Part shown: positions 10,253-23,362 of the stretch, in pieces
Position numbering within the stretch: the first letter of the stretch is position 1
How the letters are laid out: each line of letters starts with the position of its first letter
NCBI RefSeq assembly: GCF_000022205.1
Contig: NC_012029.1
Coordinates: forward strand, 1,550,001-1,614,000
Reading direction: 5' to 3'
Source of the DNA: Halorubrum lacusprofundi ATCC 49239
GTDB lineage: Archaea > Halobacteriota > Halobacteria > Halobacteriales > Haloferacaceae
DNA length: 64,000 nucleotides
Notes under the pieces: generated by a model
The model's database searches: none
The model's input: only the letters and a program-made list of their open reading frames with translations
Told to the model about the DNA's origin: nothing
Made by a program: the position numbers and the translations under genes

Positions 10253-10334
10253 TCGATTCGCGGCGACCGCGATTCGGGCGGCCGCCCGCTATCCGAACCT
10301 ATTCGGTCCTGCGTTCCCTTTTGCGAGCCAACTC

Positions 10335-19263: not shown

Positions 19264-21722
<2,459 letters not shown>

Positions 21723-22157
21723 CTACTCCGCGTCGGTCCGCGAATCGAACTCCCCGCGTCGGATTCCCTCCCGAACCGGGTCGTGTTCGGCGTCCGTCGG
21801 CTGCGGCGCGGTGACGAGTGTCGCTTCAAGTCGCTCCTCGTCGCTCGCCCGCACGCCACGCGCGGTTCCGGCGGGCACGACGACGACATCACCGGGTCCG
21901 ACCGACCGATCCGTCTCGCCCTCTCGAACGACGCCGGAGCCGGAGCGAACGATGATCGCCACGTCGCTGTCGGGCGCGTGAACGGGAATGAACTGTCCCG
22001 GCTCGAAGTAGCCACAGACGATCTTCATCCGATCGCTGTGAAACACCTCGCTGGTCGAGAACCGCTCGTCGTCGTAGCTCCGCTCGGCGTCGAAGTCGGT
22101 TGCAGGCACGTCACTCACCTCTGTGGGGTGTTTCGGTCGGGAGTCGGTCCACGCCAT
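21723..22157 (-). CDS. Small cupin-domain protein
   Basis: A single-domain cupin of up to 144 residues. The conserved barrel is visible from FHSDRMKIVCGYFEPGQFIPVHAPDSDVAIIVRSGSG to GDVVVVPAGTARGVRA. It has one clear metal-type His (PVHAPDSD) rather than the full HxH of enzyme cupins, so a binding or sensing role is as likely as catalysis. The start is uncertain: ATG 22157 gives a 35-residue pre-barrel extension, and a GTG near 22118 (VSDVPATDF) is plausible. It is divergent from the DUF2249 gene across a CGAA-N4-TTCG palindrome, so it probably shares the regulation of the 22-23 kb cluster. Confidence 0.82.
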   Translation of the reverse strand: MAWTDSRPKHPTEVSDVPATDFDAERSYDDERFSTSEVFHSDRMKIVCGYFEPGQFIPVHAPDSDVAIIVRSGSGVVREGETDRSVGPGDVVVVPAGTARGVRASDEERLEATLVTAPQPTDAEHDPVREGIRRGEFDSRTDAE

Positions 22158-22222
22158 TCTTCCGGTGTGCAGTCGGGTCGATCACGCTCGGGACTTCTCC
22201 TCCCGACAGCGAGTGCGTGTCC

Positions 22223-22236
22223 CCGAACGTGTTCGG
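22223..22236. promoter_or_regulatory. CGAA-N4-TTCG palindrome upstream of the DUF2249 gene
   Basis: CCGAACGTGTTCGG is a perfect 14-bp palindrome whose core CGAA-CGTG-TTCG fits the motif reported for the haloarchaeal denitrification regulator NarO. It ends 39 bases before the ATG at 22276, just upstream of where a TATA box of a near-leaderless transcript would be, the usual activator position. It also lies upstream of the divergent cupin gene. Confidence 0.7.
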
Positions 22237-22275
22237 CTCAACACGGATTCAGTTGTGTTCCCACTCTCCGATCGC

Positions 22276-22509
22276 ATGCCCAGACTCGACGTTCGCGAAA
22301 TTTCGCCGGTGAACCGCCACGAGAAGATACACGAGGAGTTCGAGGGGATGGACCCGGGCGAGACGCTCACGATCGTCAACGACCACGAGCCGAAGCCGCT
22401 GTACTACGAGATGGCAGCCGAGGTCCCCACCTTCGACGAGGAGGCCTACGAAGTCCGTCAGGACGCACCCGACGAGTTCGTCGCGGAGTTCCCGAAAAGC
22501 GAGGAGTGA
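22276..22509 (+). CDS. DUF2249 domain protein
   Basis: A 77-residue single-domain protein of the DUF2249/SirA-like fold. MPRLDVREISPVNRHEKIHEEF, MDPGETLTIVNDHEPKPLYYEM and the acidic end match the family closely. The ILVNDHxP-type motif around residues 35-45 is the family signature. Family members are commonly encoded beside hemerythrin, cupin and nitric-oxide/denitrification genes, and here a cupin and a truncated haemoglobin are neighbours. No catalytic function is known. A NarO-type palindrome precedes it. Confidence 0.88.
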   Translation: MPRLDVREISPVNRHEKIHEEFEGMDPGETLTIVNDHEPKPLYYEMAAEVPTFDEEAYEVRQDAPDEFVAEFPKSEE

Positions 22510-22549
22510 GGCGGCGGTAGGACGACGGCGACGGTGCTCCGGATCGAAG

Positions 22550-22867
22550 CTACGACTCGTCGAGATCGAAGAGCCGACGGATCGCTCGTGTCCGAGCCCG
22601 TGCTCGCGTTTTCCCGCTTTGAGGTGCCCGCTCTAGCGCTCGCTCCGGGGCGCCGATCAGTTCCTCGACAAGGGAGGCTCCGAGTTCCCGAACGGTTTCG
22701 CGCTGCTCGTCGGTAAGATCGCCGCGCGCTTCGAGCTTCGAGACGGCCGCCTCAAGCTCTTCTCGCTTGATCTTCGCGCTCCGACATCGGAGCCGTTTTT
22801 GGAGAGACTCCGGATCGGGGGCCGATTCGGACCGGTCGAGAAGGGATTCGGACCCGTCGGTGCTCAT
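22550..22867 (-). CDS. Stand-alone glutamyl-tRNA-reductase C-terminal-like helical domain
   Basis: A 105-residue protein from ATG 22867. Residues 33-83 (IKREELEAAVSKLEARGDL, then LTDEQRETVRELGASLVEEL and IGAPERAL) read like the dimerisation domain of archaeal glutamyl-tRNA reductase (HemA), including the loop that ends in an ApxxAL-type motif. The final RRLFDLDES also resembles HemA ends. The catalytic and NADPH domains are absent, and there is no sign of a longer ancestral frame. It is divergent from the haemoglobin gene, with its own NarO-type palindrome 37-50 bases upstream, so a link to haem supply under low oxygen or NO is attractive. The homology is from pattern memory and needs testing. 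Confidence 0.68.
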   Translation of the reverse strand: MSTDGSESLLDRSESAPDPESLQKRLRCRSAKIKREELEAAVSKLEARGDLTDEQRETVRELGASLVEELIGAPERALERAPQSGKTRARARTRAIRRLFDLDES

Positions 22868-22903
22868 ACCCGAGGGTCGGTCGGGGCCGGGGTGCGTGTT
22901 CTC

Positions 22904-22917
22904 CCGAACGTATTCGG
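22904..22917. promoter_or_regulatory. CGAA-N4-TTCG palindrome upstream of the HemA-like domain gene
   Basis: CCGAACGTATTCGG, core CGAA-CGTA-TTCG, lies 37-50 bases upstream of the minus-strand ATG at 22867. The sequence and spacing are nearly the same as at the DUF2249 and haemoglobin genes. Confidence 0.7.
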
Positions 22918-22943
22918 GGGTTGAACGGGTGCTACGGACCCTC

Positions 22944-22957
22944 CCGAACATGTTCTT
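22944..22957. promoter_or_regulatory. CGAA-N4-TTC(G) palindrome upstream of the haemoglobin gene
   Basis: CCGAACATGTTCTT, core CGAA-CATG-TTCT (one mismatch to the consensus), ends 39 bases before the ATG at 22997. It is the third such site within 750 bp. Confidence 0.65.
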
Positions 22958-22996
22958 TCGGAGGCGTCTTCCGTTGGAACCGAGTCGCTCGACGTG

Positions 22997-23362
22997 ATGT
23001 CCGATTCCCAGTCGATCTACGCGACCATCGGCGGTCAAGAGGCCGTCGAGGCCGTCGTGTCTGACTTCTACGACCGCGTCTTCGACGATCCCGTCCTCGA
23101 ACCGTACTTCGAGGGCGTCGACCGCGAGGCGCTGTACGCCCATCAGGTCCAGTTCATCAGCGCGGTCGCCGGCGGGCCGGTCTCGTACGACGGAGCCGAC
23201 ATGCGGGCCGCCCACGAGGGGATGGGGGTTACCGAGGAGGCCTTCGGTCGCGTCGCGACCTATCTCGCTGAGGCGCTCAGAGAGAACGGCGTCGCCGAGG
23301 CGAACGTCGAGACGATTCTCGACGAAGTCGGCGCGCTCGAACCCGACGTGGTCGGACAGTAA
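22997..23362 (+). CDS. Group I truncated haemoglobin
   Basis: A 121-residue 2-on-2 globin. IYATIGGQEAVEAVVSDFYDRV is the canonical opening of group I truncated haemoglobins. DPVLEPYFEG and HQVQFISAVAGGP follow, and the proximal haem-binding His is residue 73 in MRAAHEGMGVTEEAF. It probably binds O2 or NO and may dioxygenate NO. ATG 22997 is preferred over the GTG one codon earlier. It lies within the CGAA-N4-TTCG cluster, with a site 40-53 bases upstream, which suggests induction under low oxygen or nitrosative conditions (inference). Confidence 0.93.
   Translation: MSDSQSIYATIGGQEAVEAVVSDFYDRVFDDPVLEPYFEGVDREALYAHQVQFISAVAGGPVSYDGADMRAAHEGMGVTEEAFGRVATYLAEALRENGVAEANVETILDEVGALEPDVVGQ

Follow-up and report, generated by a model that had tools for sequence, protein, structure and literature searches.

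The present analysis concerns a small gene cluster of the haloarchaeon Halorubrum lacusprofundi ATCC 49239, located at positions 21723 to 23362 of a stretch of 64,000 nucleotides (contig NC_012029.1, positions 1,550,001 to 1,614,000). This whole stretch is referred to as the window, and all coordinates are counted from its first letter unless another locus is named. The cluster encodes a cupin protein, a DUF2249 protein, a truncated haemoglobin (trHb) and a stand-alone dimerisation domain of glutamyl-tRNA reductase (GluTR or HemA), the gene of which is called gluD here. An original prediction, made from the sequence alone, had described these four genes as a probable NarO-type mini-regulon controlled by palindromes of the form CGAA-N4-TTCG. 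Gene families of the window were assigned by Pfam and the palindromes were read directly:

21723 to 22157, minus strand: cupin gene (144 aa; Cupin_2, 2e-8), without a palindrome of its own at the conserved spacing
22224 to 22235, plus strand: palindrome CGAACGTGTTCG, DUF2249 promoter element, between the DUF2249 gene and the divergent cupin gene
22276 to 22509, plus strand: DUF2249 gene (77 aa; PF10006, 2.5e-23)
22550 to 22867, minus strand: gluD, stand-alone HemA dimerisation domain (105 aa; PF00745, GlutR_dimer, 1.7e-8)
22905 to 22916, minus strand: palindrome CGAACGTATTCG, reading CGAATACGTTCG on the minus strand, gluD promoter element
22945 to 22956, plus strand: palindrome CGAACATGTTCT, trHb promoter element
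22997 to 23362, plus strand: trHb gene (121 aa; PF01152, Bac_globin, 4.1e-22)

All three palindromes are present as originally described, with start positions one higher than the numbers given at that time. The gap between palindrome and start codon amounts to 40 nt for DUF2249 (ATG at 22276, plus strand), 37 nt for gluD (ATG at 22867, minus strand) and 40 nt for trHb (ATG at 22997, plus strand), which places the first palindrome base 52, 49 and 52 nt before the respective ATG; all distances below are measured in this way, from the first palindrome base to the ATG. The trHb palindrome deviates by one mismatch (TTCT end), and this form is itself conserved before trHb in relatives. In total, the window contains four exact CGAA-N4-TTCG palindromes as compared to 2.41 expected, a number which was reached in 19 of 100 shuffles. 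Since this count is ordinary, it provides no evidence, which instead comes from the position of the palindromes and their conservation.

Conservation was assessed in 19 distinct Halorubrum-type loci (the one of the window included, seven duplicate loci excluded). For DUF2249, the palindrome was found 52 nt before the ATG in 18 of these loci and at 53 nt in the remaining one, and for gluD, 16 of the 19 have it at a distance of 49 or 50 nt, while loci L066 to L068, which have a different gene order, showed no palindrome at the gluD spacing. The trHb palindrome was located at 52 nt in nine out of ten cluster loci, the exception being L050, in which the match to trHb covers no more than the first 21 residues and the trHb palindrome is missing. 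For the cupin, a gap of 66 nt separates its start in the window (22157) from the nearest palindrome. Measured from the first palindrome base to the position aligned with the first codon of the window cupin, the distance ranges from 78 to 96 nt in 11 loci and amounts to 69 nt in a twelfth, the window being one of these loci. Only three of the four cluster genes thus possess a site at conserved spacing, and the cupin would at most be carried along by the DUF2249 site. The proposed four-gene cluster consequently holds for DUF2249, gluD and trHb, but not for the cupin gene.

The same preference for position was observed when all collected loci were pooled and ATG-started frames of at least 60 codons, located 15 to 117 nt downstream of CGAA-N4-TTCG, were counted: 115 of 242 such frames fell at 47 to 54 nt, compared to 18.8 for a flat distribution, although the collected loci are related and were partly picked by the motif, so that this count is no test on independent samples. 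With control spacers of 3, 5 and 6 nucleotides, the corresponding numbers were 2 of 36, 0 of 12 and 1 of 28 frames, and with control cores they were 2 of 7 (CGTT-N4-AACG), 0 of 2 and 0 of 0. Counting one promoter per distinct protein start and allowing one imperfect end yielded 117 promoters at 48 to 53 nt, in which no strong AT-rich TATA stretch was found between palindrome and ATG. The three palindrome-bearing genes of the window thus share the promoter position and the conservation in relatives expected for members of the CGAA-N4-TTCG regulon, as judged from sequence comparison, whereas the cupin gene does not. Two further exact palindromes were noted in the window. One lies within the gluD frame (22689 to 22700), was not seen at the same place in the relatives mapped and is probably due to chance. 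The other, CGAACCTATTCG (10294 to 10305), is intergenic, and a possible GTG start follows after approximately 40 nt, a spacing unlike that of the regulon.

In the genome of H. lacusprofundi (G000), a search for the core CGAACRTRTTC gave 30 rows representing 28 distinct places, versus 1 for the reversed pattern. Eight of the 28 places sit 49 to 52 nt before the ATG of a frame that is not internal to a longer gene, namely those of the window (gluD, trHb and DUF2249), of a DUF2249-cupin fusion gene, of three genes in the nos region (a 73-aa DUF2249 protein, a 108-aa DUF2249 protein and a 463-aa membrane protein) and of a 140-aa ThiS-like gene beside norB. Four of these eight sites hence belong to DUF2249 genes, the fusion gene included. 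Most of the other core places fall inside predicted frames or were left aside; since most bare-core places are not promoter-placed, the bare core is unspecific, and specificity lies in the combination of core and spacing. Frequent occurrence of the palindrome at random positions, which had been named as a refutation, thus holds in part for the bare core. The published form CGAAYATDKTYG was found in seven rows at five places, two of which are among the well-placed promoters. At norB, a degenerate site, CGAACATGTTGC, is present 51 nt upstream, and a further site lies 56 nt before a TIGR04053/AhbD-like radical-SAM gene. The cluster hence has its motif in common with nor-, nos- and haem-related genes of the same genome, with the restriction that the site is degenerate at norB itself. 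The DUF2249-cupin fusion gene mentioned above (locus L081, 6834 to 7376; G000, C2, near 950833), which has CGAACATGTTCG 51 nt upstream, unites two families that stand side by side in the window.

Regarding the denitrification pathway, the genome contains norB, nosZ, nosD and a NarGH-like pair, while no nitrite or nitric oxide (NO) reductase gene is present in the window itself. A search of the genome for Cu nitrite reductase (NirK) returned four weak matches, none above the curated cut-off; NirS was not searched for. A multicopper oxidase gene beside norB was considered as nirK and rejected, being far below the TIGR02376 cut-off. Likewise, a 996-aa gene (locus L130, 3856 to 6846) does not qualify as classical NarG, as it remains below TIGR01580; it does exceed TIGR03479 (type II DMSO-reductase group), and its beta subunit exceeds TIGR03478. 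Archaeal NarG is taken here to belong to the type II DMSO-reductase group. The presence of norB, nosZ and a NarGH-like enzyme implies that the cluster belongs to a partial denitrifier equipped with nor and nos. This corrects the earlier idea of a stand-alone set, which is right for the window, where reductase genes are lacking, but not for the genome as a whole. On the basis of these sequence data, the cluster is very likely to be part of the CGAA-N4-TTCG denitrification regulon.

GluD shares 47% identity over 70 aa with the C-terminal domain of the complete HemA (447 aa) that is encoded elsewhere in the same genome. GluD consists of a single Pfam domain and is devoid of the N-terminal catalytic and the NADPH domains of HemA. 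Compared with the PDB, a profile of 29 GluD sequences matched the dimerisation domain of plant GluTR (3.7e-5). The AlphaFold model of GluD shows three helices (pLDDT 86.5), and its five best Foldseek matches are GluTR chains, the top one being a GluTR C-terminal region bound to the regulator FLU (probability 1.0, E 0.1). In a tree, 33 GluD and 20 HemA domains were split by a branch with 98/98 support; as the GluD domain is short and several branches are long, this tree indicates only that repeated recent excision from the local HemA is unlikely. Identity to the window copy ranges from 26 to 69%, and open frames and the helical core are kept across genera, with the copy of L056 looking truncated at its end and the match in genome G002 containing an internal stop. 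In the genomes G092 and G129, gluD had been considered to be HemA because of open-frame length; the frames show stand-alone copies of approximately 103 to 109 aa, and this assignment was dismissed.

Stand-alone gluD was also examined in 16 loci other than those of the mini-cluster, the near-copies L088 and L090 included. Within the sequence retrieved for each locus, 12 contain nirK, norB or both, 15 contain DUF2249 and eight a TIGR04053-type radical-SAM gene; L124 and L125, in which gluD is stand-alone on frame reading, are outside this count. In the islands read, gluD is found beside radical-SAM, HemG-like, norB or nirK genes and not beside hemA, and in L092 its frame overlaps that of DUF2249. 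The loci L120 to L122 contain AhbD-like radical-SAM, gluD and protoporphyrinogen-oxidase-like genes, which form a sub-cluster of haem genes within denitrification islands that carry the palindrome, and the protoporphyrinogen-oxidase-like gene of L122 exceeds its NCBIfam cut-off. Presence of norB was scored in 146 genomes. Within Halorubrum, norB occurs in 17 of 21 genomes with gluD and in 13 of 31 without it (Fisher p 0.009, phylogeny ignored), and outside this genus in 12 of 13 with and 26 of 81 without gluD (Fisher p 5e-5, phylogeny ignored). The latter value changes to p 2e-5 when ten genomes outside the genus are dropped because of an uninspected second weak profile match. Two queries for gluD on annotated plasmids yielded no hit, and no match was obtained against PHROGs. 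In the open-licence literature, no report was found that links a GluTR dimerisation domain standing alone to denitrification, and one paper touching on haem in haloarchaea names only a HemA-HemB fusion in this respect. GluD, which derives from the dimerisation domain of HemA, lacks the catalytic domains and recurs in palindrome-bearing islands, is apparently undescribed.

As to the regulator, 15 HTH_10 (bacterio-opsin activator-like) proteins are encoded in the genome, two of them in the nos island. In other haloarchaea, HTH_10 genes located in such islands carry the palindrome 50 to 58 nt upstream (L093, L094, L095, L125, L120, L122 and L124). Haloferax mediterranei is reported to lack NarO and nevertheless uses the motif (PMC10062603), and a bacterio-opsin-activator-like gene of its nirK-nor cluster, E6P09_00735, is pointed to in PMC11218638. 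An HTH_10 protein of the island type is therefore considered a somewhat better candidate for the activator than NarO.

The trHb relatives are annotated as group 1 truncated hemoglobin. Outside Halorubrum, 17 haloarchaeal trHb loci were inspected, 11 of which were drawn from a list of 19 haloarchaeal trHb records on plasmids. A site of the form.GAA-N4-TTC. was present 51 to 56 nt upstream in seven of the 17 (Halomicrobium, two Halarchaeum, Haloarcula, Haloterrigena, Halosimplex and Halolamina). The trHb genes of Haloprofundus and Haladaptatus (L133, L135 and L136) are without a palindrome and preceded by a helix-turn-helix gene, and control of trHb may hence differ between lineages. On a plasmid of Haloterrigena sp. 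KLK7 (L140, 2504 to 4317), trHb has a palindrome at 51 nt, and the gene after it encodes a HemL-like glutamate-1-semialdehyde aminomutase, a gene order which is another tie of trHb to early haem synthesis.

Taken together, the cluster is probably a satellite group within the regulon by which haloarchaea control denitrification and their response to NO, and it would function in the following way. An HTH_10 helix-turn-helix activator would bind CGAA-N4-TTCG, the first base of which lies 49 to 52 nt before the ATG. Many haloarchaeal transcripts are leaderless, and leaderless transcripts of these genes would place the palindrome just upstream of the region of the transcription factor B recognition element (BRE) and TATA box in an AT-poor promoter that would depend on an activator. 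Upon a drop in oxygen or a rise in NO, DUF2249, trHb and gluD would be induced in concert with the nor, nos and haem genes located at other places in the genome. The DUF2249 protein might then serve as a sensor or accessory protein, and trHb may bind NO or O2. GluD may pair with HemA and so adapt tetrapyrrole synthesis, at its first committed step, when haem formation changes over to the anaerobic (Ahb) route; this role of GluD is the least certain element of the proposal. The activating part of this proposal is in accordance with reports on relatives, in which the palindrome is described as an activating element in low oxygen (PMC5746218; PMC10062603). Regarding GluD, it is conceivable, by analogy with the binding of FLU to this domain in plants and rather tentatively, that it constitutes an undescribed protein family which heterodimerises with glutamyl-tRNA reductase and, being controlled by the palindrome that also serves the reductase genes, couples the supply of haem, along with the change to the Ahb route, to denitrification. 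If confirmed, this would mean that haem supply is coupled to the mode of respiration via a borrowed enzyme domain. The spacing rule as such (first base 49 to 52 nt before the ATG) offers a simple reading of the regulon in the haloarchaeal genomes examined and may serve to find members that had not been listed.

A gene for a KatG-like peroxidase (19264 to 21402, minus strand; PF00141, 7.5e-70) lies next to the cluster. It is kept beside the cluster in many Halorubrum relatives and has no palindrome at its start; a link between peroxide and NO is possible. Homologues of the cupin are present in the nirK islands L087 and L097, and in the Halorubrum genome G004 (L060, 2 to 508) nirK directly adjoins the cupin of the mini-cluster. 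The arrangement of the window may be a version of an L060-like cluster that lost nirK.

Other explanations have to be weighed against the proposed membership in the denitrification regulon. That the palindromes are chance occurrences would agree with their count in the window and with the large share of core matches in the genome that are not promoter-placed. This explanation was rejected despite the ordinary count, and its probability is negligible in view of the exact spacing over 19 loci and before three different genes, the lack of a peak with spacers of 3, 5 or 6 and the loss of the trHb site in L050, where only the first 21 trHb residues are matched. A cluster acting as an independent NO or low-oxygen defence set, outside the denitrification regulon, also appears unlikely. 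It would fit the lack of a reductase gene in the window and of a Cu nitrite reductase above cut-off in the genome, the retained KatG-like neighbour and the four Halorubrum genomes that have gluD without norB, but it conflicts with norB, nosZ and the NarGH-like enzyme of the same genome, with several nor- and nos-region genes having the same site and spacing, and with nirK adjoining the cupin in L060. The two readings overlap, since nor also has a detoxifying role in a partial denitrifier. Direct activation of these promoters by NarO itself, of the type known from Haloferax volcanii, is somewhat unlikely as well. NarO is termed the only described regulator (PMC11218638), the motif was tied to a helix-turn-helix regulator by the H. 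volcanii group (PMC5746218) and 15 HTH_10 proteins are available in the genome; this is opposed by the use of the motif in Hfx. mediterranei, reportedly without NarO (PMC10062603), and by the island HTH_10 subfamily, which elsewhere in haloarchaea bears the palindrome in its own promoter. The NarO-type label of the original prediction is putative.

For GluD, two alternatives concern the protein itself. The truncated copy of L056, the internal stop in G002 and the fast divergence of the sequences might suggest a functionless, decaying fragment of a duplicated hemA. This is very improbable, as GluD sequences lie on one side of the 98/98 branch, which does not point to repeated local excision, and as open frames, helical core and, in 16 of 19 loci, a fixed site 49 to 50 nt upstream have been kept. 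It is harder to decide against a partner other than HemA, for instance a haem enzyme, DUF2249 or an assembly factor, and such a partner is about as probable as HemA. The neighbourhood of gluD, consisting of radical-SAM, HemG-like, norB and nirK genes and not of hemA, and the overlapping frames in L092 would be in line with it. On the other side stand the preserved identity of 47% between GluD and the corresponding domain of HemA in this genome and the observation that close relatives in the PDB are confined to C-terminal domains of GluTR, including one bound to the regulator FLU. Pairing with HemA remains the version adopted in the proposed mechanism.

A number of observations are at odds with parts of the proposal. 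The cupin gene, tried as a fourth directly controlled gene, is unsupported by any well-spaced site. The HTH_10 genes in the nos island of H. lacusprofundi (L080) have no palindrome of the same form just upstream, and ten of the 17 trHb loci outside Halorubrum are without a site. With respect to GluD, the Foldseek E-values to GluTR are weak (0.1 to 2.5) despite probabilities of 0.8 to 1.0, norB is lacking in four of the Halorubrum genomes with gluD, second weak profile matches are uninspected also in two Halorubrum genomes (G034 and G045), and the Fisher tests on gluD and norB take no account of phylogeny. Finally, the motif in Hfx. mediterranei was reported at different positions, 66 to 79 nt (nir, nor and nos) and 319 nt (nar) before the ATG (PMC10062603).

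Comparison with published systems places the cluster close to the regulons of two Haloferax species. That CGAA-N4-TTCG is a palindrome of denitrification genes, as stated in the original prediction, is borne out by the literature (PMC5746218; PMC10062603). In H. volcanii, CGAA-X4-TTCG is described in the promoters of denitrification genes and of ahbD, the deletion of which lowers anaerobic growth only, and a reporter assay cited there showed that the motif is essential for nirK transcription (Hattori et al., 2016, as cited in PMC5746218). The palindrome is the same as in the window, and denitrification and haem (ahbD) genes carry it. In contrast to H. volcanii, the genes preceded by it in the window of H. 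lacusprofundi (DUF2249, gluD and trHb) form a satellite at a distance from nor and nos, with the first base 49 to 52 nt before the ATG and with an activator that is only a candidate. For Hfx. mediterranei, which uses the same motif class, mutation of CGAAYATDKTYG was reported to cause a significant loss of activity of the nos and nor promoters, whereas the loss was not significant for nir and nar was unaffected (PMC10062603). Four DUF2249 genes of this species are raised under denitrification, as is a cyanoglobin (log2FC 4.16; PMC11218638). These induced members of its regulon (PMC10062603; PMC11218638) agree with the earlier suggestion that DUF2249 and haemoglobin fit denitrification. Differences consist in the spacing of 66 to 79 nt and in gluD, which is unmentioned, the term 'glutamyl' being absent from the main text of PMC11218638. 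The DUF2249 domain is also shared with the DrpA and DrpB proteins of Thermus, which are tied to nitrate respiration (cited in PMC11218638). GluD, lastly, corresponds in fold and sequence to the dimerisation domain of GluTR (HemA; PDB 4yvq and 5che), and differs from that enzyme by the absence of the catalytic and NADPH domains. The plant regulator FLU, which serves as an analogy for GluD only, binds this very domain of GluTR.

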